Origin: Basidiobolus meristosporus CBS 931.73
Taxonomy: Eukaryota; Basidiobolomycota; Basidiobolomycetes; Basidiobolales; Basidiobolaceae
Direction of reading: 5' to 3'
Length of the DNA: 57,387 nucleotides
NCBI GenBank assembly: GCA_002104905.1
Contig: MCFE01000565.1
Location: forward strand, 1 to 57,387
Shown here: positions 33,040 through 57,387 of the stretch, one piece after another
How the letters are laid out: each line of letters begins with the position of its first letter
Position numbering within the stretch: the first letter of the stretch is position 1
Notes under the pieces: generated by a model
Told to the model about the DNA's origin: nothing
Databases searched by the model: none
The model's input: only the letters and a program-made list of their open reading frames with translations
Position numbers and translations under genes: made by a program

Positions 33040-33113
33040 TAGGAAAATAATGAATATATTAGGAAGTGCCAACTTTTGTTTCCAACGATTTATTCCACAA
33101 CACATCCCGTTCA

Positions 33114-33123
33114 CTTTTATATA
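33114..33123 (-). promoter_or_regulatory. TATA box of chitinase 1
   Basis: TATATAAAAG on the minus strand ends 74 nt upstream of the ATG at 33039. Confidence 0.65.
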
Positions 33124-34880: not shown

Positions 34881-35703
34881 GATAACAAAAATTTTGCTTT
34901 CCAAGCCTTATGCCAAGTTCTCTTATTCGTAATCAAATCTTGATTACAATTTAGTTGCTGCTTAGGATGATCATGGCGAGTATGGTATAGTGAGAATAGC
35001 ATGAAAAAAGAGAAGAGGAACTAATATTGCAAATTTGAAAACGAAGACTTGTATGCCAGCTAAGAATTGGTCGAGTGGAAAAAATATGAGATTCGCATAG
35101 CCGGAAATATATGCACTTGATCAACGGATTCCATACCACTTGTAATGGGAATCCATTTTTGTTTTGTAAGCAAGTCATTGGCCAATAGGATTTTGATTGG
35201 CAAGTAATATCGTAGATCTAAATCTCGAGCTTACCTGAACTTCACACTTGCGCTTGGCGTGTGCAAGTAGAAAGGAAAGTTCCACGGTCATATATTTAGT
35301 AACCCTTGTTAACCGGTCTGACGCGTTGTAAAGTTAATCCCACCGGTACGAAGGGCTTTTCTATACACCAATAATCCCGCCAATACGAATGACTTTCCTA
35401 TAGACGTCAGCCATCCCTACACCACAAAGCCACACTTTCTATGCAGCCGCTTAACCTAACATCTCAAGCGTGTCAGACATCTAGTCTCGGTAAAATCCTA
35501 ATCCCACATGTTGATGGGTGGCCGAAATAGTAAATAGCCAAGTTAGTAAAGTAGGATGGTGCATCAACTTTTTTGGTTGACAACAAAGATTTCCCACCTT
35601 TTGAATGGTTAATTACACTTCGTGGCGCTGCCGCTAAGACTCAACCGTGACTATAAATTGAGCGGTAGAGTCCCGCTGAACTTCAGAGGTTCTAACTATC
35701 ATC
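34881..35703. other. Divergent region between PPR and chitinase 2
   Basis: No coding gene is supported. Includes a TATA box at 35652 and repeated CACCGGTACGA/CGCCAATACGA-like motifs near 35340-35390. Confidence 0.5.
35652..35658 (+). promoter_or_regulatory. TATA box of chitinase 2
   Basis: TATAAAT lies about 45 nt upstream of the ATG at 35704. Confidence 0.6.
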
Positions 35704-38456: not shown

Positions 38457-39197
38457 ATTTGTAATATCCTGTAGGTAAATAAACTAATAATGATTAAGAT
38501 ATACATTGGTTATGCGATGTATGCGACATAAATGGCTAAGATAGAGATGTGCGTTTAGTGGTGTGAGATAGCGAGATGTGCGTTTGTAGATCGGATAAGT
38601 TATGCCAGTTCAACGCGATAGAGTAATCTCTCCATACCGGGACATTCAACTATCTGGGTACTATCCAGGTGGGTTTCCATGTAAGATCCCATGAAATCGA
38701 TAAAGGAAATAAGACCAAATAAGATTCCAATATAACCACTCTGAACGCGTTAACTCAAGGTGAAATCTATCCCGATATGCTATCCCGATACGAAATGCAA
38801 AGCAGTCTTTTATCATCCAGATGGGAACATGGGGAGAATAAACCGCAAGGTGCTAAAATGGCAATGATCCGTCACCAACCATGAAAATGTTATCTTGAGA
38901 TAAAAACGACTATAGTGTTAGGCCGTAGAATAGAACTAGACTCATTCCCATAACAGAAGTAAGTGTAGCGACATGGCTTGGTCAGGGACGTCTGCTACTT
39001 TTAGAGTTATTAACTGAAAGACGCATTGTCGGTTTTGGCACATATGAGTTTACCTAAAACAGCCCTTGTCTTTAGTGGCTAATAAGCTTCTGTGGAGGTA
39101 CATTTCGATTGCAGTGGACAGAGGTAGATCCATATAAAAAGCAAACCGTGCTACTTCATATCTCCAAACGATCTACTGGTATAGATCCATTGCTATC
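38457..39197. other. Intergenic spacer between chitinase 2 and LPMO
   Basis: No gene seen apart from the TATA box at 39133. Confidence 0.55.
39133..39140 (+). promoter_or_regulatory. TATA box of the LPMO gene
   Basis: TATAAAAA lies 58 nt upstream of the ATG at 39198. Confidence 0.65.
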
Positions 39198-40313
39198 ATG
39201 TCTTCTTCGAAACTGGCTCTGTCTGCATTTGCATTGATGCTCTTGACTCCGTATGCATTTGGCCATATGGAGATGGTGCAGCCTCCTCCCCGTCGCTCAA
39301 AATACAATCCTACCTACACCGGGAATCCTGACTACGATATGATCTCCCCATTGAATGCGGAGAAATGGCCATATCCTTGTCGTGGATACGAAAAAGGTGG
39401 GGTGGTTCAGACCGTCAAGGCTGGAAGTAGCATTTCTGTGAAGCTTGGAGGCGTTGCCAAGCATGACGGTGGCCATTGTCAGTTCGCCATTTCTTATGAT
39501 GACAACACCTTTGTGGTCCTTAAGGATGTGTACGACGATTGCCTCATTTCTTCTCTAGACTATAGCATCCAGATTCCAGCTGGGGCCCCTAGTGGTAAAG
39601 CAACCTTCGCCTGGGCTTGGATTAACAAGATAGGCAACAGGGAGTATTACATGAATTGCGCCGATATCGATATCGAAGGAACTGCTGATGGATCAGTCAG
39701 TGGCCCTAAACTCCTTGTGGCCAACCTGCCAGGATACCCAACCATACCTGAGTTCGGTAATGGAGGGTACAGTGGTAAAGACCTGTTTGAGAGCCGACCT
39801 AATGTTAAGGTCACTCACGCTGGTAGTAGTGAGGAGAATCCCGTGCCTGAGTTAAAACCCACGGAGACAATCAAGCCTACTGAGACCAGCAAGCCAGTAC
39901 CAACCACCGATGGGGGGTCAAGCAACTGTGGAGATGTTCCACAATGGAACTCTGGAACTTCATACAATGGAAAAGATAAGGTTGTATACAACAATATTCT
40001 ATGGGAAGCAAAATGGTGGACCCGCAACGATCAGCCCGGAAACAACAGTCAAGATGTATGGGCTAGCCAGGGCGCCTGCGACGGCAAGCCGGTTGAACCC
40101 ACAAAGCCTGTGACATCTGTTGAGCCAACACCAACTGTGGAAGTAGGGTCAGGGGCTTGTTCCGGTATTGCCGAGTGGAGGCCTAATGTAGCATACAATG
40201 GAGAACAAAAAGTTGTATACAACAACAGAGTCTGGCAAGCAAAATGGTGGTCTCAGAATGACAAGCCTGGGAATAACGGGCCCAATGTTTGGGTGGATCT
40301 AGGAGCATGCTAA
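39198..40313 (+). CDS. AA11-like chitin-active lytic polysaccharide monooxygenase
   Basis: A 371-aa secreted protein. The signal peptide MSSSKLALSAFALMLLTPYAFG would be cut just before His (HMEMVQPPPRR), giving the N-terminal His of the copper histidine brace. The second copper His is in KHDGGHCQFAIS. A later block FAWAWINKIGNREYYMNCADI is typical of AA11 enzymes. After a Thr/Pro linker come two CBM5/12-like modules (VPQWNSGTSYNG, then WEAKWWT; and IAEWRPNVAYNG, then WQAKWWS). The enzyme would break chitin chains oxidatively and help the two chitinases. AA11 rather than AA9 or AA10 is my best family call. Confidence 0.88.
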   Translation: MSSSKLALSAFALMLLTPYAFGHMEMVQPPPRRSKYNPTYTGNPDYDMISPLNAEKWPYPCRGYEKGGVVQTVKAGSSISVKLGGVAKHDGGHCQFAISYDDNTFVVLKDVYDDCLISSLDYSIQIPAGAPSGKATFAWAWINKIGNREYYMNCADIDIEGTADGSVSGPKLLVANLPGYPTIPEFGNGGYSGKDLFESRPNVKVTHAGSSEENPVPELKPTETIKPTETSKPVPTTDGGSSNCGDVPQWNSGTSYNGKDKVVYNNILWEAKWWTRNDQPGNNSQDVWASQGACDGKPVEPTKPVTSVEPTPTVEVGSGACSGIAEWRPNVAYNGEQKVVYNNRVWQAKWWSQNDKPGNNGPNVWVDLGAC

Positions 40314-41642: not shown

Positions 41643-42790
41643 CTTCTTTGATAGTTTCACAGGTAGCTATTTACTCAGCCTCTGTGGTGCACAGTGCTAT
41701 AGTTGGTTGCTTTCCTGAGTACCATGAAATCACTTATCTACAACAAAGGAAGATGTATCCTGTGGTGGATCTTCTGCCTTCTAAATTTTTCACTCAATTT
41801 GCATCAGAGTATCACACAAAACTCTTTTCTCAGACCCTATATGTGCACCTTATCCAGATATCAGCAGTCCCTGTTAAATATTTAAATCCGCTGTACTGAA
41901 GAATATGGTCAGATTCTTAACTCTGTTGTAAGAGTCTTGGAGATATTGGAAGTGATTTGGGAGGACAAGTAGGTTGTGTGGTTTTCACTTAATGATTTAT
42001 TGAATGTGAAAGTAGTATTTATACTTTTACCTGGTCTTGGCATTACAAACACGTCGAATAGGTTAAGGAAGGTCCGAACAACATGTGTGCAAAGTTTGGG
42101 GCTGTTTGGATAACTTTGAGAATTTTCATGTTCTGGGTACCTGGTATTTTGGTGAAAATATTCTAAGTAAATCCCAACAAGGAATTTGGTCAGTAATCTC
42201 TAGGATTTGAGGGTAATGATCTAAGTGACTAAGTTAGGTGAATATTTAGGTGGAATTACAAATTTTTACAACAAACTCTGATTGGGTTGCCTGACCACTC
42301 CTGCTGAATACAAGATATCTGAGTTTGTTCCTTGCAGGCAATATGTCAAACTACCAACTATAGACTGTCAAGGACAGTCCAGGCTCTAAGATGGCACTAA
42401 GTTCACTTGATTTGATTCATTTTTAACCAAGTTAAGGGCAGTCTTGATTGGGGTAGCAATCAGTTTATATTCTGCATTTAGACCACATTTAGTATTTCTT
42501 GAATATATTGGACAGACTCAAGGTGGTGGTCCAAATACTTGTGTCTATAGAGCATTGTATCCTTAAGTAGTAGCTGAGCTCTCATGTATCAGACATCTTG
42601 AATTCCTTAAATAGGTGGGATTTATTCACCTTCAGTGCTTTTTGGTTAATGGTGACTATAATTATTGTAAGAGTTTTAATGATATTGAAAGTGATTGAGA
42701 TATCAAGTAGATTATGTTGTTTACACATAACTGTTTATTGATAGTCAATATAATATTTATACTTGTACATCATCTAGGCAGAATACATAG
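41643..42790 (-). mobile_element. Decayed Copia 3' part with nested solo LTR, truncated at 42790
   Basis: 41643-41923 and 42274-about 42660 match the RNase H and reverse transcriptase end of the intact Copia polyprotein. A further LTR piece at about 42664-42790 stops inside the LTR, exactly where the first TTAGGGG junction begins. The abrupt stop suggests an old chromosome break. Confidence 0.75.
41924..42273 (-). mobile_element. Solo Copia LTR with target duplication
   Basis: A 350-bp LTR, TGTTGTAAGAG to TTTTTACAACA, is flanked by AACTC on both sides (41919-41923 and 42274-42278) inside the decayed Copia. It is close in sequence to the intact element's LTRs. Confidence 0.93.
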
Positions 42791-42833
42791 TTAGGGGGGG
42801 GGGAGACAGTCACCAACAGGTGAAATCTCTAAT
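42791..42833 (-). mobile_element. LINE-A micro-copy (unit a)
   Basis: TTA plus ten G, then AGACAGTCACC and GGTGAAATCT: the last ~40 nt of LINE-A (reverse complement), cut off after the hairpin. It is the innermost unit of the array. Confidence 0.85.
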
Positions 42834-43251
42834 TTAGGGGAGGGAAAGTCACTAAGTTGATGAAATCTTTATTTGAGTCAAGAACTAATCTAAGTACAAA
42901 TAAAGAAGCCAATTAAGAGGTCTAGAACCTCTCTAATAAGTAATCTAATTTATGTTTTGTTTCATCTCTAATGTTTGTTTCAATAAAGTAAAGCTCATCA
43001 GGGGTAAATATGAAATTCAAGGGTTTTGGAGGGAAGTCCAAATTGTAGATGTTTCTGATCAATATAATCCAAGACTGGAGCCCAGCCTGGGATTAGGTGT
43101 AGTAGGAAAGGTGTGTGGACTTGTAAGTAGCTCTGCCACATAGATCCTAGATGGTCCTGAGCCAGTAGTCTTGGTTTCTCTGCTTTTTGAAGTTTTGAAG
43201 CAAGCTCTGTTACTACAGCAGAGCCAACCAGGGTGTGCCAGCAAGAAGATT

Positions 43252-45972
43252 TCAGGGAGGAGTTAGATTTAAGCCACTGTTTGATGGAGGGGTTATGTGA
43301 TTTCTGAAGTTGACTAGGAAGGAAGCACAAAGATAGACCATTTGGATTTGGTATGGGTAGAACCCAAAGGCTCCATTAGTTGCATGGATATAGGGAGACA
43401 CCAAAAGATAAGGTACCAAGGATCTGATACACTGATGGAGAAATTTATCCAGGCGGTGAAGTTCTCTGGAGGTTAGGGGTATAATGTGGAGACCAAATTC
43501 AAGTATGAGCAGTACATACTGCTTCAGAAGTATAGGGATCTTTTGAATTGGAGTGTCTGGAGTGACTACTACCAGAAGCTTTTTGAGAGGCTGTTGGGCA
43601 AGACAGATCCTATTTTTCAGGTGGAGCTTTGAGTCAATCCCATGTTGACAAAACGGCAGACCTAGATATATTGCAGTTTGTTGTGGCAGAATGCTAGTGT
43701 TCTGTATAGTTGTAGTGCACCCAATTGGGACTGTCTTGGAAATTGAGAGTGAGAGGTTGTTGGCAGCCAAGTACTTCTCAATGATGGCAGTGTCTGCTAT
43801 GGGATTAGGAGTAGCAATCTTGATATCATCCGCATAGAGAGTTAGTAGTGGATAGGGAGAGTCTGGTGAGGGGCCTTTTGGAAATAAAGGAAAGTTGAGT
43901 AGGAATATCACAAATAGTAAGGGACCTAGTACAGATCCTTGGACTACTCCATTTGGAACCTCATAAGTCTCTGATGTGCAACTTGGATGCAAAATTTTGG
44001 CTGAGTTCTCACAAAATAGAGAACATACAAGAAGGTTCATTGGTAGTGTGGTAACTGCTAATAGCTTTCTCCAAAGCAGAGCTCTGTCCACAGAGTCAAA
44101 GGCTTTAGTAATGTCAAACAGAATGGTTGGCAATGAGAATTGAAGTGAATGATCATGGCTTAGCACTACAGCCATATCCAAGGAGAGTTTGGGCAAGAAG
44201 CCAAACTGAGAAGGATGGAATGGATATAGTTGAGATTGTAAGGATCTTGCTATTATAAGCTCAAAGATTTTCTGGCAGGTTGGTAGGAGTGAAACTGGCC
44301 GGTAAGAACCTGGAAGTGAGTGTTTCCCCTTCCCTTTGTATAAGGGTGTTACATTTGCCTGTGACCAGGCCTTTGGGGTAGTCAATTGTTGCGCACAGAT
44401 AGAGTAGAATGGGATAAGTAAGTGACTCATTTTGGAGTAGCACACCCAGAGTAGATTGTAGGTAATCAAGTCATGTCCAGGTGCAGTATTTGCAGGACGC
44501 TTCTTTAAAATTTTCTCCAGAAGCTTTGCTGAAATCAAAATTGGAGATGTTGGACTGCTGGATATGTTACCAGTATGGTAGAAAGGAGGAGTGGGATGCA
44601 CAGATGAATCAAAGAATATAGGGGCCAGTTTGTCTGGTGATGATATACTCCTTGCTTGGGGTCTCATGGCTTTGTATACTCTTGATATGGACCTTGTGGT
44701 GGCATTCATATTTACTAAGGGCAAGGTATCCATGATATGAGCCCATAATCTAGTATGCTCAGTGATCTGTAGTGACTTGGAGTAGGAGATTGCGCTTTCC
44801 AGGAGGTTCTGTGTTTTTGGGTTAGGGAAACATAGGTAGCTGGAATTTAAGACAGAAATGATGGATTTCCATTTAAGTTGGTTTGCAGATGGCTTTTGGT
44901 AGGACTTGGTGGGTAGGGCTAGACAGCCAGTGATTATGATGAAATGCTGGTAAAATAGCCATAATGCATTTATATCATCACAAATCCATGTAGGTAAGCT
45001 GGGAAATGCATATTCGGTAAGCAAGGATAGGTAGTTGGCAAAGTCCTGTGTCTGTGATACTGAAGCTTTGGCTGGCAAGATTGTAAATGGCTGAAGAAGG
45101 GTGCCAATTGGTAAGGTTTTTCTGGCAGAAATGATAATATGTATTGGCTTGTGATCAGATTTCTTTAGTGACCCACAACTGATATCCTCTGGAATGCTTG
45201 TAACCTGGTGGATGTACTGTAAGGCAGCTGGAGTAGCTGTTACCCAGCCAACACAACATTGAGCTTGCTGAGTGTTTACAGTGACCAGATGGTTTTGTTG
45301 GAGGAACTTTGTAAAGTGCTCCTCTTGGGTTCTAAGTCTGGATGAAATAGTGGTGATATTTTCAGGGTGGGGAATATTTATATCTCCCACTACCATACAA
45401 GGGATTGATGAGCTGTTAATGAACTCTGATGTGGCTAAGAAAATTGCCAGTGTTATGGAGCTAGACAGAGATGGAGGGAGATAGATAGTAATGGCTACTA
45501 TAGCTGGAAGTGTTAGAGCATAGCAGTAATACTCATAGATGATGGATACATTTGCTGAGGGTGCAAGCTTAGAAGATGAAAGAGCAATGAGTGCCATTGA
45601 GTGAGCTGGAAATTTTGGGTGAGCAGATGAATATGCATTCAGTCTAGAGGGAAGTTTGGGCAACTCAACATCAATTAGTAGGAGCAAAGAATATTCCTTT
45701 TTCAGTAAGTTTTCTAATTCAGCTACTGTTGGAGTGATGGAGTTGAAATTGAGTAAGAGTATGTTCTGTAGTTGGGCAGACTCTGAGGTTGCCTGTTCCT
45801 GCTGAAACTCTTGCACTGCCCTTTGTAAATTTCCAGAATTATTCCACAACTCTTCAAATGGAGCTTGTGTAATGTCTTTCAGGATTCTAATTGCTTCCTC
45901 TTTCAAGAAGTAGGCCACATCATAGGTTGGAGCCTGTTTCTTAATGGCAGCAAAGAATGCCATAATTGCCAT
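43252..45972 (-). CDS. LINE-B ORF2: endonuclease and reverse transcriptase
   Basis: A 906-aa intact frame. An apurinic-like endonuclease domain (about residues 65-285) has NFNSI, a Glu in LIDVELP, VVGDINIPHPE and SDHKPI; the core acidic and His residues are present although the domain is diverged. The reverse transcriptase (about 470-750) has FDITKAFDSVDR, NGVVQGSVLGPLLF and LYADDI as the catalytic YADD. No RNase H or CCHC knuckle is seen after it. The start at 45972 overlaps the end of ORF1 by 70 nt in another frame. The protein would cut or use telomeric DNA and copy its own RNA there; that target is inferred from the insertion pattern. Confidence 0.92.
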   Translation of the reverse strand: MAIMAFFAAIKKQAPTYDVAYFLKEEAIRILKDITQAPFEELWNNSGNLQRAVQEFQQEQATSESAQLQNILLLNFNSITPTVAELENLLKKEYSLLLLIDVELPKLPSRLNAYSSAHPKFPAHSMALIALSSSKLAPSANVSIIYEYYCYALTLPAIVAITIYLPPSLSSSITLAIFLATSEFINSSSIPCMVVGDINIPHPENITTISSRLRTQEEHFTKFLQQNHLVTVNTQQAQCCVGWVTATPAALQYIHQVTSIPEDISCGSLKKSDHKPIHIIISARKTLPIGTLLQPFTILPAKASVSQTQDFANYLSLLTEYAFPSLPTWICDDINALWLFYQHFIIITGCLALPTKSYQKPSANQLKWKSIISVLNSSYLCFPNPKTQNLLESAISYSKSLQITEHTRLWAHIMDTLPLVNMNATTRSISRVYKAMRPQARSISSPDKLAPIFFDSSVHPTPPFYHTGNISSSPTSPILISAKLLEKILKKRPANTAPGHDLITYNLLWVCYSKMSHLLIPFYSICAQQLTTPKAWSQANVTPLYKGKGKHSLPGSYRPVSLLPTCQKIFELIIARSLQSQLYPFHPSQFGFLPKLSLDMAVVLSHDHSLQFSLPTILFDITKAFDSVDRALLWRKLLAVTTLPMNLLVCSLFCENSAKILHPSCTSETYEVPNGVVQGSVLGPLLFVIFLLNFPLFPKGPSPDSPYPLLTLYADDIKIATPNPIADTAIIEKYLAANNLSLSISKTVPIGCTTTIQNTSILPQQTAIYLGLPFCQHGIDSKLHLKNRICLAQQPLKKLLVVVTPDTPIQKIPILLKQYVLLILEFGLHIIPLTSRELHRLDKFLHQCIRSLVPYLLVSPYIHATNGAFGFYPYQIQMVYLCASFLVNFRNHITPPSNSGLNLTPP

Positions 45973-46037
45973 GTGAGCTGGGGCTTGTTGAATATTCCTG
46001 GCTCAGTGTCCATTGACTCTGGTGGAATGATTGTGAA

Positions 46038-46042
46038 TTTGG
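46038..46042. repeat. Copia target duplication, left copy
   Basis: TTTGG, matched by 50730-50734 on the other side of the Copia. Confidence 0.95.
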
Positions 46043-46392
46043 TGTTGTAAGAGTCTTGGAGATATTGGAAGTGATTTGGAGAACAAGTAGATTATGTGGT
46101 TTTCACTTAATGATTTATTGAATGTAAAAGTAGTATTTATACTTTTACATGGTCTTGGCATTACAAACACGTAGAATAGGTTAAGGAAGGTCCCAAGAAC
46201 ATGTGTGCAAAGTTTGGGGCTGTTTGGACAACTTTGAGAATTTTCATGTTCTGGGTACCTGGTATTTTGGTGAAAATATTCTAAGTAAATCCCGACAAGG
46301 AATTTGGTCAGTATTCTCTAGGATTTGAAGGTGATGATCTAAGTGACTAAGTTAGGTGAATATTTAGGTGGAAAATACGAATTTTTACAACA
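46043..46392 (-). repeat. 3' LTR of intact Copia
   Basis: 350 bp, TGTTGT...ACAACA. It differs from the 5' LTR at only three positions that I can see. A purine tract GAGTGGGAG sits immediately inside it as the plus-strand primer site. Confidence 0.95.
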
Positions 46393-46403
46393 CTCCCACT
46401 CAG

Positions 46404-49400
46404 CTAAATGTTCATACTGACTAGTCCTAATTTTGACCTAAGATATTCAAACTTGTCTCTAGCTAATGGTTTGGTAAATATGTCTGCAATCATTTCATCT
46501 GTAGGACAGTAAACTAAGCTAACTAAGTTATTCTCTATAGCTTCACGTATGAAATGATGTCTAATATCTATGTGCTTGGTTCTAGCATGAAAAGTTGGAT
46601 TTCTACCTAATTGTATACATCCTTGATTATCTTGAAATAAAGTAATAGGCGTTTTTTGACATAGGCCTAAATCTGTAAAGAGCTTTCTTAACCACATTGC
46701 TTCTTTTGTAGCTTCACAGGCTGCCATATACTCTGCCTCTGTAGTAGAAAGTGCTACGGTTGGTTGCTTTCTTGAATTCCATGAAATGGCTCCTTTACAG
46801 TAAAGAAAGGTATATCCTGTGGTGGATCTTCTGTCTTCTAAATTTCGTCCCCAATCAGCATCAGAGTATCCCACAAGATCCTGTTCTGAATCCTTATAAG
46901 TGTATCTTAAGCAGATATCAGCAGTTCCTTTTAGGTATCTAAAAATCCGCTTAACTGCTGCAATATGATCAGATCCATAATTCTGATTATGTTGGCTGAC
47001 AACTCCCACTGAATATGAGATATCTGGACGTGTTCCAAGCATGATATACATCAGACTGCCGACCATAGATTGATAAGAAAAGTCAGGGCTTTCAGATGGC
47101 ACCAAGCTCTCTTGATTTGGTTGAGTTTTGACCAAGTTAAGGTTTGTCTCCATTGGGGTAGCTGCCGGTTTACAGTCTTCCATTTTGTACTTCTTTAGTA
47201 TATCTTGAATATACTTGGATTGGCTTAGGGTAATAGTCTGGGTACTTCTGTCTATGGAGAACTTAATCCCTAAGTAGTAACTGAGTTCTCCTAGATTGGA
47301 CATCTTGAACTCCTTAGATAGGCTGGATTTAGTCTCTTCCAATGTTTCTAGGTTATTGGTGGCTATAATAAGATCATCCACATATAGAGCTAATAGAACT
47401 GGATTTGCTCTATCTGGCTTATAGTATATACTATAGTCAGCATTACTCCTTTTGAAACTCAAAGATTCCAAATAAGAATCTATCTTGCAATTCCAGGCTC
47501 TCGGTGATTGTTTGAGACCATATAGTGACTTTTTAAGCTTGCAGACCAAATGGGGGTTATCTTGGTCAACAAAACCATCAGGCTGGTCCATATACACGTC
47601 CTCATCAAGTTCTCCATTCAAAAATGCAGTTTTTACATCCATTTGATGAATAAAAAACTTATATTTGGCTGCAATAGCCAATATTAATCTGATGGAATTA
47701 AACTTGGCTACCGGTGCAAAGGTCTCAGTATAGTCAAGTCCTTTTGTTTGAGAGTATCCTTTGGCTACAAGTCTTGCTTTGTATCTTTCAATTGTACCAT
47801 CAGCCTTGTATTTTGTCTTGAAGACCCATCTGCATCCAATTGATTTTCGGTTGATTGGTAATTTGACTAAGTCCCAAGTTTGATTTTCCATCAGGGCCTG
47901 ATATTCCTCAGTCATTGCAGATCTCCAAAACTTCGTCTGAGGGCTATTTAGGGCCTCTTTTACAGTCTGGGGTTCATCAATATGGACTGAATAGGCATAG
48001 GCTAAGTTTGTACCCTCATTAATATAGTAATTTGGGCTATTTCTTGTCCAATTTGATCTCCGGGCATTTGATACTGGAATGATCACTTCTGGGATATTCC
48101 TGGGCACTGATTCTGGCTGAACCACGGTTGTAGAGTCCTCTGGAGTGAAAAAAGTTTCATTGTTTTGCTCTGATTCAATCCTGACAATTGGTGGACTTGA
48201 GATCAAATTTTCGTCATCATCTGATGTCATTTTTTGTGAAAATTTTGAATTTTCATCAAACAACACATCCCTGGACTTGATCAGCTTCTTTGCTTCGGTA
48301 TTGTAGAGTCTGTATGCCTTACTCTCATTGCAGTAGCCCAAAAATATGCATTTTACACTTTTTGGCTCAAATTTTGACTGATTTCCGGCCAGTTTTTTGG
48401 CATATGCTGTACACCCAAATATTCTTAGATGTTCTGCACTTGGTCTGTGTCCATACCATGCTTCAAATGGAGTAGAATCACAAAGTATTCTGTTATAACT
48501 TCTATTTTTAAGATATACAGCAGTGGCAACTGATTCCGCCCAAAAATCATAGGATAATTTTTGATCATGGATCATAGATCTTGCCATATCAATTATTGAT
48601 CTGTTAGCTCTTTCTGCTACTCCATTTTGCTGTGGGGAGTATGGTACAGTAGTCTCTTGCTTTATCCCATGAATTTTGCAGAAGTGGATGAAGAGTTTTG
48701 AGGTATATTCTCCACCATTGTCAGAGCGTATTTTCTTGATTTTTTCACCAGTTTCTCTCTCCACCATGGCTTTAAACTCCCTGAGCTTAGACAGAGCTTC
48801 TTCCTTTCTCTCCATGAAGTAGACCCATGTGTATCTTGTATAATCATCAATAAAAGTGATTAAATACTTCATCCCGCCTAAGGATAAATTTTGCATAGGT
48901 CCACACAGATCTGAGTGAATTAGATCTAATTTTTTCTTAGTTTTGATTAACCCAGAGCTCTTGAACGGTTGTCTGGCTTGTTTCCCATATATGCAGGCTT
49001 CACAGTGCTCCAAAATAGCTGGGGGATCAATTTTCACTCCAGAAATTAGCTGATCTTTGATCATTTTACGCAAATAATCAAAATTGATGTGTCCAAATCT
49101 CCTGTGCCAAAGCATTGGTGTTTCTTCATTTAAGTTACTTATATTGGCTTCCAGATATGATGGAATATAAGTCAACTTGTATAGGTTCTGATCTCTGATG
49201 CCCGAAGCAATATGGGCACCATTTTGATCAGTGATCCTGCATCCAGAATTGTCAAAACTGAAACTGAGTCCTTCTGCTGTGGCCTTGCTTACAGAGAGTA
49301 GGTTCTTGGCTATTTCTGGTACATAGAGTACTTCTTTAAAGGTCAGTGTATGGCTTCCTTCACTGCTTCTAAGGTTTACTTGGATAGTTCCTTCTCCCAC

Positions 49401-50375
49401 TGCTTCAAGTGTTCTATCGTCACCCATGAAAACCTTCTTAATTGGAATTTCTTGATATTGGGTAAAAAGTTCTTTTTGGTGTGTAAAGTGTTGAGAAGCT
49501 CCAGAGTCAATATACCACGTCTGAGAATCCTTGTTTGTGGTCATATTTAGTGCAGATATGAATAGTCTATCTTCAGTTGTTACAGCATTTCCATATTCAG
49601 GCTTCTTTTGCTGATAATCTCTCTTTTTGAAACATCGGTCTGATGTGTGTCCTTTCCTTTTGCAGTAGTTGCAAAATAGGTTGCTGTTGCCTTTGTAGGG
49701 TCTTGGGTACCTCCTTTGTTGGTTATCATTGCTTATTAAAGCATTTTCTTCTTCCTTCTTATTGGCGCTTGATTTTCTTAATTCTTCATCCAGGAGCCTT
49801 CCATATACGTAATTTAAGGTCAAATCTTCAGTTCTGGACTCTAGGGCTGATACAAGGCCCTGAAACTCGTCTGTCAGGCTATTCAGGATGGTAACTATCA
49901 CATCCTCATCAGTAGTTGGTACGCCCACAGATTCCATCTCATCTACCAGCAGGGTAATTCTGTTAATTAGATTTTTCATTTCTTCTCCTGGCAGCATCTT
50001 TGTAGTAAAGAATTTTCTTCTCAGATACATTTTCTTGGCAGCTGAACATGACTGGTAGGTGTCTTCTAATGCTTTCCAGGCATTCTTTGCCGTTTTTGCT
50101 CTTGAGCATTGAATTAGCAATTTGTCCTTGACATTAAGGCAAATGCAGTTAAAGGCACTTTGTTCTTTCTTCTGGTACTTCAAGGCTTCCTCTCCCACGT
50201 TTTTAGGAGGGCATTCTTCTCCCATGACAATATCCCAAAGGCCTCTTTCTTGTAGCAGCATCTTCATCTTCACCTTCCACACTTGGTAGTTAGATCCATC
50301 CAACTTTTCAGCAGAGGGAAAAATTCCAGTAATAGCAGTAGTAGACATTGCAGAGAGTGACAGCTCGGGGCTCAT
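46404..50375 (-). CDS. Copia gag-pol polyprotein
   Basis: 1323 aa, one frame. In order: gag, a CCHC-type knuckle (CNYCKRKGHTSDRC), aspartic protease (WYIDSGASQHF), integrase with a zinc-binding HCEACIYGKQ and a core with DLIHSDLCGP and SPQQNGVAERANR, reverse transcriptase (MDVKTAFLNGEL, then LYVDDLII), and RNase H (GYSDADWG, then STTEAEYMA). This is the Pseudoviridae/Copia order with integrase before RT. The ATG at 50375 is chosen because upstream codons lie in the LTR; it overlaps the primer-binding site. All catalytic motifs are intact, so the element may be active. Confidence 0.95.
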   Translation of the reverse strand: MSPELSLSAMSTTAITGIFPSAEKLDGSNYQVWKVKMKMLLQERGLWDIVMGEECPPKNVGEEALKYQKKEQSAFNCICLNVKDKLLIQCSRAKTAKNAWKALEDTYQSCSAAKKMYLRRKFFTTKMLPGEEMKNLINRITLLVDEMESVGVPTTDEDVIVTILNSLTDEFQGLVSALESRTEDLTLNYVYGRLLDEELRKSSANKKEEENALISNDNQQRRYPRPYKGNSNLFCNYCKRKGHTSDRCFKKRDYQQKKPEYGNAVTTEDRLFISALNMTTNKDSQTWYIDSGASQHFTHQKELFTQYQEIPIKKVFMGDDRTLEAVGEGTIQVNLRSSEGSHTLTFKEVLYVPEIAKNLLSVSKATAEGLSFSFDNSGCRITDQNGAHIASGIRDQNLYKLTYIPSYLEANISNLNEETPMLWHRRFGHINFDYLRKMIKDQLISGVKIDPPAILEHCEACIYGKQARQPFKSSGLIKTKKKLDLIHSDLCGPMQNLSLGGMKYLITFIDDYTRYTWVYFMERKEEALSKLREFKAMVERETGEKIKKIRSDNGGEYTSKLFIHFCKIHGIKQETTVPYSPQQNGVAERANRSIIDMARSMIHDQKLSYDFWAESVATAVYLKNRSYNRILCDSTPFEAWYGHRPSAEHLRIFGCTAYAKKLAGNQSKFEPKSVKCIFLGYCNESKAYRLYNTEAKKLIKSRDVLFDENSKFSQKMTSDDDENLISSPPIVRIESEQNNETFFTPEDSTTVVQPESVPRNIPEVIIPVSNARRSNWTRNSPNYYINEGTNLAYAYSVHIDEPQTVKEALNSPQTKFWRSAMTEEYQALMENQTWDLVKLPINRKSIGCRWVFKTKYKADGTIERYKARLVAKGYSQTKGLDYTETFAPVAKFNSIRLILAIAAKYKFFIHQMDVKTAFLNGELDEDVYMDQPDGFVDQDNPHLVCKLKKSLYGLKQSPRAWNCKIDSYLESLSFKRSNADYSIYYKPDRANPVLLALYVDDLIIATNNLETLEETKSSLSKEFKMSNLGELSYYLGIKFSIDRSTQTITLSQSKYIQDILKKYKMEDCKPAATPMETNLNLVKTQPNQESLVPSESPDFSYQSMVGSLMYIMLGTRPDISYSVGVVSQHNQNYGSDHIAAVKRIFRYLKGTADICLRYTYKDSEQDLVGYSDADWGRNLEDRRSTTGYTFLYCKGAISWNSRKQPTVALSTTEAEYMAACEATKEAMWLRKLFTDLGLCQKTPITLFQDNQGCIQLGRNPTFHARTKHIDIRHHFIREAIENNLVSLVYCPTDEMIADIFTKPLARDKFEYLRSKLGLVSMNI

Positions 50376-50379
50376 AACC
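50362..50379 (-). promoter_or_regulatory. Copia primer-binding site (half-tRNA-iMet type)
   Basis: Just inside the 5' LTR the minus strand reads GGTTATGAGCCCCGAGCT. GGTTATGAGCCC is the complement of the initiator-tRNA anticodon stem-loop (GGGCUCAUAACC), as in Drosophila copia and yeast Ty5, not of a tRNA 3' end. It contains the ATG start of gag. Confidence 0.85.
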
Positions 50380-50729
50380 TGTTGTAAGAGTCTTGGAGAT
50401 ATTGGAAGTGATTTGGAGAACAAGTAGATTATGTGGTTTTCACTTAATGATTTATTGAATGTAAAAGTAGTATTTATACTTTTACATGGTCTTGGCATTA
50501 CAAACACGTAGAATAGGTTAAGGAAGGTCCCAAGAACATGTGTGCAAAGTTTGGGGCTGTTTGGACAACTTTGAGAATTTTCATGTTCTGGGTACCTGGT
50601 ATTTTGGTGAAAATATTCTAAGTAAATCCCAACAAGGAATTTGGTCAGTAATCTCTAGGATTTGAAGGTGATGATCTAAGTGACTAAGTTAGGTGAATAT
50701 TTAGGTGGAAAATACAAATTTTTACAACA
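50380..50729 (-). repeat. 5' LTR of intact Copia
   Basis: 350 bp, bounded by TGTTGT/ACAACA. Followed by target duplication TTTGG at 50730-50734. Confidence 0.95.
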
Positions 50730-52076
50730 TTTGGTAGGCACCCAGTTTAGATTTTTTGCCAGATACTTATTCAATGCAGTGGAGAAGTTTCTGTCTACAA
50801 TCATTTCTAGGATCTTTCCTCTTCTCCAAGCTAGGTTAACAATTTTTGAAGTGTCAATATTTAGAGAGCGGAATGTACGTCTGATGTTTGATATAGTAGT
50901 CCATGGAACATTGGCAAAGTATAGCAAGGACCAATTCTGGAGCCGAGGTAAGTTTGCTGGAGGCCTATAGGTAGACTTCCTGGCAGGTTGTGTGGTAGGC
51001 TTTAGTGTTTCCAAGGTAGCAAGTTGTGGTTGAGACTTTTTGGAATTATGTATGACTTTGGAAAGAATTCTGCCAGCAACTGTGTCAGGAATGTTAGTAC
51101 TCATTGATGGTGAAGGGCCTGGCTCCTGGTACTCCTTTTGTAGAATACTTGAGTATGTCTCTTTTTGTTTTCCTTTATCCAATGTGCTATGCCTTGGAAT
51201 GGGATTTTGGGGAATAGAGACTTCAGGTATCAACTCTGGGGTCTGGTGACTGTCCAACATTGTTGCTTGAGCTTCCAGCTTTTCCTCTAAGATTTGAACT
51301 CTCTGCTTAAGCTCATCATTTGACACTATAAGTGTTGCATTGTTTGGAGCCAGGTCAGGTGTTGAGTTATGAAGGCAGGTTGAGCAGCGTTCTAACTCCT
51401 TTGTTTGGTCATCCAACTTTTCTTCTAAGGTTTGAACCCTCAATTTGAGTGCACCATTTGAGGTTAGAAGCTCCAAGTTATCAGCCTGCAACTTCTTTAG
51501 ATCCCTAAATATCTCAAATATCTGTGCCTGCAAGTCTTTAGCAGTGATATTTCTGATGGGTACTATTTCCTCTAGGGGCTCTTCTTGAGCCAGGTGATCA
51601 TTGGGACTTGAGCATTCTACTGGAGGAGTTGCTGGAATCTCCTCAATGTCTGACAAAACTTCTTCACTTGCAGCATCAATTGTATGATTATCCTGAGTAG
51701 CAGCAACAGTCTCAAGCTCACAAGGACCAGTTGAAGTAAAACATCTCTTAGGTGGGACTATCTCAAGAGGCTTGGGTGGGACTTTTGCTTTGAATGGTGA
51801 GGTACTAGTATCAAGAATTGGGACTGGGACAGAAGCTAGGGTGTCTATTTCAGCAGCAGTTGCTGTAGAGCTATGGGGCTCTGACTGGCCAGTTTTTTGG
51901 TCTTTGCCTTCACTCCTGCTACCAACTGGTCAAGACCACAAATCTTTGTACAGGCCTTGCATTGGACCTGCTTAAGCTTATTCTTGCCAGCACAGCCATT
52001 GAGCTTCCATTTGCCTCTGATACCACAGGCAGTGCAGTCAAGTCTTGAATACCATCTTCTGAAGAGAGTCAGATCC

Positions 52077-52392
52077 TTAGGGGGGGAGACAGTCACCGAC
52101 AGGTGAAATCTTTATTTCAGTTGAAACAAAGAAGCCAGCGCTACTGTTGTAGCTTTGATACAAGAGTGTGTAGCTGAGGGGAATTTGTAGTTAAGTTAAT
52201 AAGAAGTGATGATAGTTCTTCAGTGCTCAAGACACTGTTGAGTGGGAAGGGGGGTAGCAAGAGAGGTAAGAATGACTTGTGAACAACATTAATGAGGGGA
52301 ATGTGATAAGGATTGATATTCATCATAAAGGGAGTGTGCTGCTGCAGATATTGCTGCCAAAGGTCTGTCAAGTACTTCAGGTAGGGTTAGGG
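52077..52392 (-). mobile_element. LINE-A truncated copy (unit c) plus interstitial telomere repeats
   Basis: Starts TTA plus seven G, then the LINE-A 3' end and the last 76 codons of ORF2 (52371-52141, stop intact). It is cut at ...CTTCAGGTAGG, which runs straight into GTTAGGGTTAGGG. The LINE-A sequence at that point already reads GGTAGG, so telomere addition used microhomology. Confidence 0.9.
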
Positions 52393-52398
52393 TTAGGG
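52380..52398 (+). repeat. Interstitial telomere repeats between units c and d
   Basis: GGTAGGGTTAGGGTTAGGG: two to three TTAGGG units left between two retroposons, the longest internal telomere remnant in the array. Confidence 0.9.
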
Positions 52399-53795
52399 GG
52401 GAGGGAAAGTCACCAAGGTAGGTGAAATCTTTATTTGATTGCAGACAAGTCTAACTACAAATAAAGAAGCCAGCTGGGAATAGAGGATTCCCAAAGTAAA
52501 CACCAAGTTGAATATGAATAAATCTAAGCTAAAGTTAAGGCAGTATCCCAGAGTACACTGGAGTTCAGGTTCATGGGGGAGTGAAGTAGATAAGCTTGAG
52601 AGATATAATAATCTTTAAGGAAGTGGGTAACAGCAGGTGAAGGTGAGTTTTTGATAAGTGAAGTGAATCTTGAGAGCAGAGATTCCTCTAATGAGAAGGC
52701 CTTATAAACTGGAGAATCAGGAAACTCTTTAAAGGCATGGTGTTGTATCCAAGAGAAAGTGTAATAAAACTCTTGAATGGTTTAACTGAACCAAAGGGAC
52801 AATTAAGCGCAGAATCTTAGAATTGTCAGAGAGTGGCGGAAATATTAGCAGAAAGATTCTGATCTAATATTGGTCTTGGATATAGCTGGGTTGGCTATAA
52901 AGGCAATGATATTTGTTAGCTAGGCAGGCTAGGCTTGGTGTTCTTTGGAGTGCTAGATATACTAGGCTTGGATAGAAACTAGAACGGAATTGTTGGATTC
53001 GTATTTTTGCTGAGACAGAATCTTAATTTCATTGAGACACACACTAAACCAAAAGGTTCAGTACACTTTATTTACACTTTTCTGATCAAGTTGAATTAGT
53101 AAGCGCCAAGGGACTGGATTGATTGAAATCAATTTGGGTGTTCATAGGTGCTTAAGATAAATGAAAATTACATCATCAATCAACTGATGTCTTGGCAACT
53201 GCACAGTGGTTGGATAGATCTCAGATGACTAATCACCTGGGAAGGCTTGGCAGATAGGTTGATAACGTGATGACCATTTGAAAATAGATCAGGTGTGATA
53301 GCTAAAAATAGATTCTGAGGTGGGATCAAATAAACTGTAACTGGGATTTGTTATGTTTGGGTTAGGGAAAATCAGTTAGGGTACTAGATTTTCAAACGGA
53401 GTAAAATTGGCAAAGTTTTAAATGTTGATGCACAACATCACTTCCTTCCGGAAGAGGAGTTTTTTGATACCTTCTGGGTTCCTCTGCGGCTCCAATACTG
53501 ATTGATAATGGCAACATCATCAAAGTTGGTGTAAGGTTCCCAGGTGTTGTGTTTGGCATCATAGCCTTTCCACTTGACTAAATAAAGGCAATTTGGTTCT
53601 TCTCCATCATGGTCCAAAATAGCTTCAACTTCATAGGATTCTGAAGTTACTGGGTCTTGAGAAATAAGTTTGAGTGAGGAAGGTGGAAAGTTTTTGGGTA
53701 GCAGTGCTCCAGTGTTATCTTGAAGTACATAAGATCCTCCAGTAGTGCGTCTGACAACCTTGAATGGTCCTTCATACTTGGGGTCAAGCTTAGAT
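52393..53795 (-). mobile_element. Chimeric retroposon: Ty3/gypsy chromovirus 3' part with LINE-B-type tail (unit d)
   Basis: On the minus strand: integrase C-terminus and chromodomain (53795-53438), a purine tract GGAAGGAAG followed by TGATGTTG, which looks like the start of a 3' LTR, about 950 bp of non-coding sequence, then the LINE-B-type end (AAATAAAGATTTCACC, then GGTGACTTTCCC, six C, TAA). No LINE coding sequence is present. Probably a gypsy transcript copied onto the end after template switching, or a passenger that acquired the tail. Confidence 0.7.
53438..53795 (-). pseudogene. Gypsy integrase C-terminus with chromodomain (fragment)
   Basis: About 118 residues. The GPY/F-type module (KYEGPFKVVRRTTGGSYVL, then FPPSSLKLI) is followed by a chromodomain (YEVEAILDHDG, LYLVKWKGYDAKHNTWEPY). 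Chromoviral integrases use this chromodomain to target heterochromatin. The rest of pol is missing because of 5' truncation at 53795. Confidence 0.85.
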
Positions 53796-53881
53796 TTAGG
53801 GGGGAGGAAAGTCACCAAGTGGTGAAATCTTTATTTACTTATGACAAGTATCTAAAGAAGCCAAGTTAATCTGAAGTTATT

Positions 53882-54000
53882 CCTAGAAAGCTAGGTCTGA
53901 GAGATATCTCCCTGGTAAGCCAGGTCTGAGAGTTGAGAAGCTGAGTGGTACTATATTTCCTAGTTAGCTAGGTGTGAGAGAGGTTTCCTGGAAAGCCAGG
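53882..54000 (-). repeat. Four covarying hairpin repeats in the SINE body
   Basis: Palindromic 14-mers at 53882-53895 and 53959-53972 (CCTAG/CTAGG) and at 53911-53924 and 53987-54000 (CCTGG/CCAGG), each with a 4-nt loop. They alternate in a two-unit pattern of about 77 bp. Confidence 0.85.
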
Positions 54001-54249
54001 CCTGAGAAGTGAGAATCTGAATATATCTGAGCTAAGTTATACTGGTTTGCGGTAGCTGAATTGTGGCCGGAATGGCCAGTAGACTGGGGGAACTGAGATG
54101 AATTTCTGGGCGATCACTGGCCAAATTTACTAGGCAAATCTGGCCAATTAGCATTTCAAGGATTTCAGCCAATCAGAGCCTTTACTTTGCCCGATGGTTG
54201 ATCAAGCCATCTCCCAATGAGCACACATTAATTTATTAATCAAATTTTG

Positions 54250-54310
54250 TTGGATCCAGGATTTGAACCCACAACCATGGGTATGGAAGGGTTAGGGATA
54301 ACCACAAGGC
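54250..54310 (-). promoter_or_regulatory. Pol III A and B boxes of the SINE head
   Basis: A box TAGCCTTGTGG and B box GGTTCAAATCC, about 40 nt apart on the minus strand. Confidence 0.6.
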
Positions 54311-54323
54311 TAAGTGTTCTTGG

Positions 54324-54701
54324 TTAGGGGGGAGACAGTCACCAACAGGTGAAATCTTTATTTCAGTTGAAACAAAGAAGCCAGCGCTACTGTTGTAGCT
54401 TTGATACAAGAGTGTGTAGCTGAGGGGAATTTGTAGGTAAGTTAATAAGAAGTGATGATAGTTCTTCAGTGCTCAAGACACTGTTCAGTGGGAAGGGGGG
54501 TAGCAAGAGAGGTAAGAATGACTTGTGAACAACATTAATGAGGGGAATGTGATAAGGATTGATATTCATCATAAAGGGAGTGTGCTGCTGCAGATATTGC
54601 TGCCAAAGGTCTGTCAAGTACTTCAGGTAGGCCAGCTTGGGTTTTTCTGACTGCAGAATAAATTCAGCAAACTTCTTGACTTCAGGATCTCCAAGTATAG
54701 T
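54324..54701 (-). mobile_element. LINE-A truncated copy (unit f)
   Basis: Begins TTA plus six G and matches the last ~378 bp of LINE-A almost exactly, including the ORF2 end (54617-54387). Cut at ...CCAAGTATAGTT, where the next junction TTTAGGGG starts. Confidence 0.92.
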
Positions 54702-57116
54702 TTAGGGGGGGGGGAGACAGTTACCAACAGGTGAAATCTTTATTTCAGTTGAAACAAAGAAGCCAGCGCTACTGTTGTAGCTTTGATACAAGAGTGTGTA
54801 GCTGAGGGGAATTTGTAGGTAAGTTAATAAGAAGTGATGCTAGTTCTTCAGTGCTAAACACACTGTTCAATGGGAAGGGGGGTAGCAAGAGAGGTAAGAA
54901 TGACTTGTGAACAACATTAATGAGGGGAATGTGATAAGGATTGATATTCATCATAAAGGGAGTGTGCTGCTGCAGATATTGCTGCCAAAGGTCTGTCAAG
55001 TACTTCAGGTAGGCCAGCTTGGGTTTTTCTGACTGCAGAATAAATTCAGCAAACTTCTTGACTTCAGGATCTCCAAGTATAGTTCTCCAGCAGGAGCCAG
55101 GTGTTGTGTGGTGTGTTCTCTTCCAGGCCTTAATCATTGGGTTCTTGCAGTTGTGAAGTCTGAGGTATAATCTGGTTCTAAGGTAGAGAAGTCTAATCTT
55201 ATAGGGCATAAACCCAAAAGCACCAAGAATAGCATGTCTGTAGGGGCATTCAGGCAAATGAGGCACCAAGGAGGTAATGCACCATACTGCAAACTTGTCA
55301 AGCTTAGTGCAGTCTCTAGAAGTAAGAGAGAGAAGTGCTAAGCCAAATTCCAGGACAGGGAAGACAAACTGCTTGAGTAGAAGGAGGCAGCTGGGAGCTG
55401 AAGTTGTAGGAGGAGTAACAGCCAGTAGCTTGTGGAGTGCCTGTCTTGCCAGGATAATTCTCTTCTTCAGGTGTGCTCCAGAGTCTAGTCCAGTAGGAAG
55501 GAAAGGAAAGCCAAGATATGTAGCAGAAACCTGAGCAGGTAGAGTGGAGTTCTCTAAGGTGATGGGAGAGCCCAAAGGTACTGTCTTTGCAATGGAAAGC
55601 TGGAGATTATTCTTCTGCAGATACTGGTGGATGGTCTGGGAGTCTTGTTGCACATTGGAGGAGGATATTCTGATGTCATCAGCAAAGAGAGTAACCAGGC
55701 AGTCAGCTGAGAGTCTTGGGAAATCATTCAGGAAGATGGCAAACAGTATAGGACCAAGCACAGAGCCTTGAACCACTCCATTAGGAACTGAGAACACAGC
55801 TGATTGCTCACTTGGGTGCAGAATTCTTGCTTGTGGATCCAGAAACAGAGACCTGACAAGGAGGGTGAGAGAGGTAGTGGAGAAGCATTGTAACTTGGAC
55901 CAAAGCAGATTTCTGTCAACTGAATCAAAGGCCTTAGTAATATCAAACAGAACAGAGGGATACTTGCACTGGAGAGAGTGATCTTGGCTAAGTATGACTG
56001 CATATTCCAAGGAGAGGCCAGAAACAAAGCCAAACTGTGCAGGATGAAACTTGAGGGAGTCAGAGTAGAGCTCCTGAGCAAGCAGAAGCTCAAACACCTT
56101 TCTGCAGGTGGGCAGCAGAGATATTGGCCTGTAGGAGCTAGGATCCAGGTGCTTTCCTTTACCCTTGTACAGTGGCAGAACATTTGCAAAGGACCATTTC
56201 TCAGGAGTAGAAAGCTGGGCTGAGCATTGCTGAAACAGTGGAAGCAGAAGTGCAGACATGGCCTTGGTACTAGTCTTCAGAAGCTCATAGGAGATTGTGT
56301 CCACACCTGGAGCAGTAGAGTTGGGAAGCCTCTTGAGCACATTATGGATTCTCCTTTGATCAAGTGCAAGTGGGATGGGCAGAGTCTTGAAGTCAGGATG
56401 AAAGCCAGGAGTTGAGTACTGCTTTGTAGAGAAGAAGATGTTAGCCAGCTGTTCTGTTGAAGGTAACATCCTGGAAGGGGGCCTCATTGCCCTGTAGAGT
56501 CTTGATACTGTTCTTGTTATAGAGTTGGAAGATTGCAGAGGCAAGGAACTCATAATATGATCCCAGAGCTGAGTATGCAGAGTGTGGTGAATTGCCCTGG
56601 AGTGGTGTATTGCTGTCAGGAGGAGTTTCTCTGTTTTTGGGTTAGGGAAACTCAGGTAGCTTTGTTGCAGGGCTGAAACAATGGATTCCCATTTTCTTGA
56701 GGTAACAGCAGTAGTCTTGCATGGCAGTGAGAGGGAGGCAGACACCAGAATCAGATGCTTCACAAAGAGCCAGGCATAGTTAAGATCATCTGGCAGAGAA
56801 AGTAGCAAACTGGCAAGCTTCAAGTAGTTCCCAAAGTCTTTCTTCTGATTCTTGGTAGCTTTGTGGGTGAGCACAGTAAGTTTTGGCAGCTTCTTCTTCA
56901 AAACTGGTTGCATAGAAAGGGACCAGGCTGGGTGGTCAGAGGCTCTGAAGGATCCTAGCTCAGCTCCAGAGAATTGCTTAACTTCATTCACAAAGTAGAG
57001 GGCAGCAGCAGAAGGGCAGATCCAGTCAACACATCTTTTCTCAGATTGAGCACCTAGTGCTAGCAGATGGCTTTCTCTCAGGAAGTTCAGTAGGAATGTA
57101 GACCTTGGCTTCATTC
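54702..57116 (-). mobile_element. LINE family A, longest copy (unit g)
   Basis: 2415 bp. Begins (3' end) with TTA plus ten G and AGACAGTTACC and carries an open ORF2 from the end of the endonuclease through the reverse transcriptase. 5'-truncated in the endonuclease domain, at the junction with unit h. Confidence 0.93.
54769..57114 (-). CDS. LINE-A ORF2, 5'-truncated: reverse transcriptase
   Basis: 781 aa in one frame. The first ~75 residues are the tail of an APE-type endonuclease (RASDHPAW carries the Asp-His pair); the rest of that domain is absent. The reverse transcriptase has FDITKAFDSVDRN, NGVVQGSVLGPILF and LFADDIRI (catalytic FADD), a thumb, and a helical C-terminus ending LHTLVSKLQQ. 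It shares about the whole layout with LINE-B ORF2 but is clearly a different family. The ATG at 57114 is only the first Met after truncation. As a copy it probably cannot initiate its own cleavage, but its RT is intact. Confidence 0.9.
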   Translation of the reverse strand: MKPRSTFLLNFLRESHLLALGAQSEKRCVDWICPSAAALYFVNEVKQFSGAELGSFRASDHPAWSLSMQPVLKKKLPKLTVLTHKATKNQKKDFGNYLKLASLLLSLPDDLNYAWLFVKHLILVSASLSLPCKTTAVTSRKWESIVSALQQSYLSFPNPKTEKLLLTAIHHSRAIHHTLHTQLWDHIMSSLPLQSSNSITRTVSRLYRAMRPPSRMLPSTEQLANIFFSTKQYSTPGFHPDFKTLPIPLALDQRRIHNVLKRLPNSTAPGVDTISYELLKTSTKAMSALLLPLFQQCSAQLSTPEKWSFANVLPLYKGKGKHLDPSSYRPISLLPTCRKVFELLLAQELYSDSLKFHPAQFGFVSGLSLEYAVILSQDHSLQCKYPSVLFDITKAFDSVDRNLLWSKLQCFSTTSLTLLVRSLFLDPQARILHPSEQSAVFSVPNGVVQGSVLGPILFAIFLNDFPRLSADCLVTLFADDIRISSSNVQQDSQTIHQYLQKNNLQLSIAKTVPLGSPITLENSTLPAQVSATYLGFPFLPTGLDSGAHLKKRIILARQALHKLLAVTPPTTSAPSCLLLLKQFVFPVLEFGLALLSLTSRDCTKLDKFAVWCITSLVPHLPECPYRHAILGAFGFMPYKIRLLYLRTRLYLRLHNCKNPMIKAWKRTHHTTPGSCWRTILGDPEVKKFAEFILQSEKPKLAYLKYLTDLWQQYLQQHTPFMMNINPYHIPLINVVHKSFLPLLLPPFPLNSVFSTEELASLLINLPTNSPQLHTLVSKLQQ

Positions 57117-57179
57117 TTAGGGGGAGACAGTCACCAACAGGTGAAATCTTTATTTCAGTTGAAACAAAGAAGCCAACGC
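57117..57179 (-). mobile_element. LINE-A micro-copy next to the telomere (unit h)
   Basis: TTA plus five G, hairpin, AAATAAAG-type signal and GAAGCCAACG, 63 nt in all, then directly TTAGGG repeats. The most recent visible addition. Confidence 0.93.
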
Positions 57180-57221
57180 TTAGGGTTAGGGTTAGGGCTA
57201 GGGTTAGGGTTAGGGTTAGGG

Positions 57222-57281
<60 letters not shown>

Positions 57282-57387
57282 GGTTAGGGTTAGGGTTAGG
57301 GTTAGGGTTAGGGTTAGGGTTAGGGTTAGGGTTAGGGTTAGGGTTAGGGTTAGGGTTAGGGTTAGGGTTAGGGTTAGGGTTAGGGTT
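57180..57387 (+). repeat. Telomere, (TTAGGG)n
   Basis: About 208 bp of TTAGGG repeats to the window end, G-rich strand running 5' to 3' outward, so this is a right chromosome end. Variant units occur in the inner part (GGGCTAGGG near 57195; TTTAGGG near 57240 and 57259), and the outer ~120 bp is uniform. Confidence 0.97.

Follow-up and report, generated by a model that had tools for sequence, protein, structure and literature searches.

The arrangement closest to the one reported here is that of MoTeR1 and MoTeR2 in Magnaporthe oryzae, which form one-way arrays with 5' ends outward and short TTAGGG tracts between units (PMC7367193). FoTeR of Fusarium oxysporum is reported from chromosome ends only and with telomeric repeats at its 3' junction (PMC12857005). 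Here, we describe a terminal array of this geometry (units directed at the telomere, their 5' ends facing outward and their 3' ends joined to telomeric repeats) in Basidiobolus meristosporus CBS 931.73, whose assembly comprises 89.0 Mb in 1,311 contigs. The window analysed is the whole of contig MCFE01000565.1 (57,387 nucleotides, our C830), the end of which carries long interspersed nuclear elements (LINEs) with an apurinic/apyrimidinic endonuclease (APE)-type domain, a short interspersed nuclear element (SINE) and an element with only the first open reading frame (ORF1), capped by a TTAGGG telomere. MoTeR and FoTeR had already displayed the geometry in other fungi, so it is less new than the original prediction for this DNA proposed. 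The elements probably work like MoTeR and FoTeR, with an endonuclease of another type.

The likeness to MoTeR extends to 5'-truncated units that new telomeres cap, a non-autonomous partner with the 3' end in common, long terminal repeat (LTR) elements inserted in the arrays and internal relics (PMC7367193). MoTeR1 is described there as encoding an endonuclease of restriction-like type and as starting, at the 5' end, with telomere-like repeats, whereas the Basidiobolus elements are APE-type and include a SINE and an ORF1-only element. FoTeR likewise differs from the APE-type elements found here in its restriction-like endonuclease, being grouped with MoTeR1, Cnl1, SLACS, CRE and CZAR, and its 3' junctions hold three to seven repeats, against mostly one here (PMC12857005). 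Restriction-like endonucleases are what the MoTeR and FoTeR papers report from this fungal niche, which the present elements extend by LINEs of the APE type, a SINE and an ORF1-only element. No telomeric retroposon of Basidiobolus was named in the titles and abstract openings searched, a search mostly outside the subscription literature and so no proof of absence, and the literature searched did not yield the combination seen here, in which LINEs of the APE type are accompanied by a SINE and an ORF1-only passenger on fungal ends capped by TTAGGG.

Among other known systems, insect TRAS and SART elements insert within telomeric repeats. In Drosophila, elements are attached to chromosome ends without telomerase, and telomerase repeats are absent. 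Athena-type Penelope-like elements are endonuclease-deficient and form stacks at chromosome ends, their junctions containing brief stretches of telomeric sequence; theirs is a Penelope-type reverse transcriptase (RT) without an APE domain, whereas a LINE-type RT with an APE-fold domain is present here. TRAS and SART, described as telomeric LINEs of Bombyx and other insects (PMC10088271), resemble the present elements in being APE-type, as the solved TRAS1 domain shows, and tied to telomeric repeats, and the TRAS1 endonuclease fold matches LINE-B. The mostly one-repeat stubs, the shared C-run tail, the SINE and the ORF1-only partner set the Basidiobolus elements apart from them. HeT-A, TART and TAHRE share the end stacks, the inward 3' ends and a gag-only partner (HeT-A) beside an RT-coding element (PMC10088271, in part), but the ends described here are capped by TTAGGG arrays. 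The two known ways of maintaining chromosome ends, telomerase and retroposons, are joined in one organism.

Retroposon junctions and live telomeres

At eight positions of the window (42791, 42834, 52077, 52393, 53796, 54324, 54702 and 57117), TTAGGGG is followed by the reverse complement of a retroposon 3' end, exactly where the original prediction had placed them, and the pattern holds genome-wide. The word TTAGGGG occurs ten times in the window, eight of these being the junctions, and CCCCTAA is absent. The units (Table 1) form a one-way array with 3' ends inward, a telomeric stub at the 3' junctions and the real telomere just beyond, bearing out the predicted layout. Two APE-type LINE families and a SINE share the arrangement as proposed. 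The gypsy chimera listed with them does not, being instead an LTR insertion with an identical LTR end that abuts four different flanks, and a fourth tail-bearing family, the ORF1-only LINE-C, joins LINE-A, LINE-B and the SINE. The unit at 52393 was also considered as a second SINE, an assignment dropped because longer copies carry an ORF1 frame.

All 15 telomeric ends that were read, on contigs picked for holding a tail, carry their TTAGGG array (49–235 bp) on a retroposon unit: LINE-A in seven, the SINE in six, and LINE-B and LINE-C in one each. The gap between unit and telomere is at most 6 bp in 13 of the 15; the two wider gaps are those of C302 (16 bp) and C1 (56 bp). Tails also lie within 2.8 kb of the telomere in C1, C2, C21 and C22, the first four telomeric contigs listed, which were not tail-selected. 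Sixteen right ends of tail-bearing contigs were read, five finishing in TTAGGG and 11 without it. The role given to telomerase in the original prediction is supported by pieces of a probable telomerase gene in the same genome: on C880, Telomerase_RBD is matched twice, at 40.5 and 34.7 bits against a cut-off of 25, with a stop inside one of the pieces.

Genome-wide distribution and orientation

The 37-nt LINE-A tail, with up to three mismatches, has 796 forward and 83 reverse matches in the genome (control 0). When the pattern is widened to the tail of every family, matches rise to 1,435 forward and 131 reverse (reversed control 0), which puts the number of shared 3' ends in the genome at 1,566 or more; a further pattern that demands TTAGGG 1–14 nt upstream scores 1,454 and 96, double repeats being counted twice. 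A whole TTAGGG stands just upstream of 85 of the 100 first-listed tails. For the two junction words put forward for a genome search, 106 matches are forward and 9 reverse (control 0). The rules of attachment can thus be learned from far more than a thousand junctions.

The telomeric word (TTAGGG)6 has 6,568 forward and 68 reverse matches, telomeric ends lying almost only on the right of contigs. The strand bias of the tails parallels this one and so probably reflects contig orientation, an assembly habit being the likely cause of the forward excess of telomeric repeats. In the sample examined, copies are neither mostly internal nor randomly oriented, an outcome in favour of the original prediction: of the first 100 tails listed, the 38 on large contigs (11 contigs; lengths read for seven, inferred from size order for four) are all no more than 22.2 kb from a contig end, and in every one the 3' end faces inward. 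Each contig end has one orientation in 37 contigs, and minus-strand junctions occur in three contigs, always at the left end. C424 (312,558 bp) carries telomeric repeats and outward-facing mirrored arrays at both ends and so probably represents a small chromosome in full. As even the largest contigs reach only 345 kb, the genome may comprise many small chromosomes.

Telomeric stubs

The strings upstream of the junctions are distinct in 103 of 106 places on 37 contigs, a set that leaves out two turned loci of C27, and the repeated strings are complete SINE 5' ends. Since nearly all junctions are distinct, the units appear to have been added one by one. The 105 junctions parsed, which include places picked for TTAGGGG, hold no whole TTAGGG unit in 20 cases, one in 67, two in 13, three in 4 and five in 1. 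A further 63 distinct junctions come from loci selected without regard to TTAGGGG; a G-run of 3 or more is present in all of them, a whole TTAGGG in 51 (44 by script and 7 by eye, with G-runs of at least 8) and partial or altered telomere repeats in 12. The G-run of LINE-A ranges from 4 to 10, with a mode of 6 (20/42). Junctions with at least four telomere repeats occur at 25 distinct sites (32 rows). At window position 42791 and at loci L005, L012 and L027, units of only ~16–40 nt are followed by a repeat and the next unit.

Complete SINE 5' ends reveal the register in which telomeric repeats begin. The start is gapless in 27 of 37 rows with tracts of at least three repeats. For one-repeat stubs (TTAGGGG), 100 of 148 rows were listed, and 82 of them start without a gap; both patterns need TTAGGG within 6 nt and are blind to partial starts. 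This equal register on long tracts and stubs is the best evidence that a stub represents the beginning of a telomere that once stood there.

Element families, shared tail and encoded enzymes

All four tail-bearing families end in the same order of features, comprising a first hairpin, AATAAA, a second hairpin and a C-run. The first hairpin shows complementary changes between families; the stem of the second hardly varies, giving no covariation support. LINE-A has part of an ORF1 and a 922-aa ORF2 frame. In the best 49 of 1,385 first-look candidates, all 49 ORF2 copies scored are at least 99% identical over their full length and 45 are stop-free, figures that, coming from the best-scoring copies, give no estimate of the intact share among all copies. 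LINE-A ORF2 is, judging from these sequences, apparently young. Forty-seven of the 49 lie on the minus strand, with one at the left end of C1257 and one exception on C726. LINE-B copies are 85–95% identical to that of the window (best 50 of 1,108 candidates, window copy aside), and two plus-strand copies among them begin within 0.5 kb of the contig start. In four LINE-C copies the ORF1 stop lies 128–129 nt before the 3' end, with no ORF2 between, and the LINE-C and LINE-A ORF1 proteins are 34% identical over 133 aa. The SINE is short and non-coding, with 519-nt copies whose 3' tail is shared with the LINEs; its head contains A- and B-box-like words, judged by the general consensus, and was not called as a tRNA or known RNA by ARAGORN or Rfam.

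The RT is of LINE type, with RVT_1 over the cut-off, a sequence match to LINE-1 ORF2p and fold matches to the LINE-1 and R2 RTs. An N-terminal APE-type endonuclease is matched by fold at residues 75–298, retaining N85, Y174, D207, N209 and H284. The corresponding Pfam match exceeds the cut-off only in the relative P0005, falls below it in LINE-A and is lacking for LINE-B (E 0.1). The metal-binding Glu is replaced by Asp in all four members covering the site (LINE-A, LINE-B, P0001 and P0003), the five outside relatives aligned all having Glu. A pattern search for a C-terminal restriction-like endonuclease with a CCHC motif was negative in all five proteins. Five relatives of LINE-A ORF2 (P0001–P0005) show 48–80% identity to it; a scan of viral contigs with LINE-A ORF2 gave no relative.

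Proposed mode of attachment to chromosome ends

Because of the orientation of the units and their telomeric stubs, it is highly probable that the TTAGGG-3'OH of the G-strand serves as primer, whether at a chromosome end or at a nick. RNAs of LINE-A, LINE-B, LINE-C and the SINE would end in the same two-hairpin tail and C-run, with which the telomeric Gs may pair. The LINE RT would copy them from the TTAGGG-3'OH on the telomeric G-strand, presumably acting in trans on the SINE and LINE-C, and the complementary DNA (cDNA) would extend outward, often stopping early. Telomerase would then cap the unit's 5' end with a fresh array of ~200 bp, and the series could start again, an order of events that we infer. 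Priming may well occur where an end is healing or almost bare, most often with about one repeat in place; on the sequence evidence we put the probability of this at roughly 0.5. A free or healing end is favoured because it best explains the units of ~16–40 nt and the short stubs, and such minute units followed by a repeat and a new unit are as expected from repeated tries at an open end.

More tentatively, the APE-type LINE RT could be a second end-extending enzyme beside telomerase, taking over the TTAGGG-3'OH at healing or nearly bare ends and copying the RNAs of four families by way of their shared two-hairpin C-run tail: the two LINEs, the element with ORF1 alone and a SINE confined to telomeres. 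If so, chromosome ends would be built of retroposons and merely capped by telomerase. The data suggest that these ends are built jointly by telomerase and a retroposon machine.

Several observations weigh against priming at open ends. The endonuclease domain is retained, though needless for a purely end-primed element. Distal copies are not clearly younger, adjacent pairs dividing 11 to 9, and the comparison of outermost with innermost copies gives 8 to 4 with 2 ties (14 contigs). One-repeat stubs (67/105) are more exact than random erosion predicts. An internal LINE-A copy at C402:165381, 80.7 kb from the right end and 9.6% diverged, has a two-repeat stub and may be an old internalised end or an old chromosome fusion. 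In C726 (69,561 bp), a LINE-A at 56–59 kb, connected with a SINE through a TTAGGG stub, points away from the near end; this inverted array (region 56456–69561, ~10 kb inside) lies beside a normal array at the right end and represents either a rearranged end or a mis-join.

Alternatively, the APE-type endonuclease may nick the G-strand in the first, subtelomere-side TTAGGG, with ordinary target-primed reverse transcription to follow and the old telomere kept beyond the unit. A nick of this kind, which we regard as possible though rather unlikely, explains the retained endonuclease, and one in the first repeat also leaves one repeat. In Magnaporthe, one new truncated MoTeR1 is reported to lie one repeat from the telomere edge, and interstitial tracts of at least three repeats to break, so that a nick and a free end are both possible. 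The Glu-to-Asp change at the metal-binding site speaks against nicking, and very short abortive units arise more easily at an open end. Nicks anywhere in ~33 repeats would also leave longer stubs, yet only the 25 sites noted above have four or more repeats, although a loss of long stubs, such as MoTeR arrays undergo, could account for this. For elements of this kind, the choice between a nick and a free chromosome end becomes directly testable.

It is improbable that the stub is templated by the 3' end of the retroposon RNA, reading CCCCCCUAA through its own junction onto any broken end. AATAAA does stand ~30 nt before the C-run, placing cleavage near CCCCCUAA, and the stubs are mostly about one repeat long, as such templating would have it; stubs of 2–5 repeats with varied start phases, and the common register of live telomeres and stubs on SINE ends, speak against it. 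Spread of the arrays by break-induced replication or unequal exchange, in place of new insertions, is less probable again: recombination is known for MoTeR arrays and fits the inverted array of C726, but the near-complete diversity of upstream strings runs counter to it. An assembly artefact is very improbable, for although the strand excess of telomeric repeats is odd for random contig orientation and 11 of 16 right ends stop without a telomere, the junctions are distinct, each end keeps one orientation in 37 contigs and C424 has telomeres at both ends.

Features of the window

Table 1. Units of the terminal array and elements inserted in them, in window coordinates
Feature	Position	Strand	Evidence
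Unit 1, innermost: TTAGGGG(G) stub and ~30 nt of LINE-A 3' end, 43 bp in all; very short cDNA	42791..42833	(-)	Junction read; LINE-A tail family D5/D6
Unit 2, LINE-B (tail, ORF2, part of ORF1), interrupted by copia element	42834..52076	(-)	Junction; RVT_1 E 2.2e-19
LINE-B ORF2 frame, 916 aa, endonuclease and RT	43252..46002	(-)	Fold matches: LINE-1 ORF2p, R2, R1 and TRAS1 endonuclease domains
Copia LTR retrotransposon within LINE-B	46043..50729	(-)	LTR identity 337/340; TTTGG target duplication on both sides; copia Pfam domains
LINE-B ORF1 part	50676-51929		
Unit 3, LINE-A, 5'-truncated, ~0.3 kb	52077..52381	(-)	Junction; repeat family D2
Unit 4, stub of ~3 telomeric repeats, then 3' part of LINE-C (ORF1-only element)	52382..52740	(-)	
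Gypsy LTR element piece with chromodomain, inserted in LINE-C, cut off distally by next unit	52741..53795	(-)	Chromo domain E 1.1e-14; same LTR end next to four different flanks
Unit 5, complete SINE with shared tail	53796..54323	(-)	Junction; near-identical 519-nt copies in genome
Unit 6, LINE-A, 5'-truncated, ~0.4 kb	54324..54701	(-)	Junction
Unit 7, LINE-A, 5'-truncated, 2.4 kb, most of ORF2	54702..57116	(-)	Junction; RVT_1 E 6.9e-26
Unit 8, outermost, LINE-A 3' end, 63 bp including junction	57117..57179	(-)	
Terminal telomere, TTAGGG repeats, 208 bp, 33 exact units	57180..57387	(+)	

The copia element, a later passenger outside the mechanism, has an open frame of 1,416 aa, and a diverged copy of its LTR occupies 42000–42780, adjoining the first junction. 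An Rfam scan of 42000–57387 gave no match. Farther inward, ARAGORN called a 73-nt tRNA at 22430–22502 with anticodon TCA, labelled SeC (selenocysteine), possibly a false label. Such a tRNA would be unusual for a fungus, and 73 nt is short for a selenocysteine tRNA. A chitinase frame of the window is 100% identical, over 97% coverage, to a B. meristosporus CBS 931.73 protein. A chitinase/chitin-binding gene cluster lies near the subtelomere at 30535–40313, in which the frame 35680–38148 matches chitinases and the others were judged by eye.

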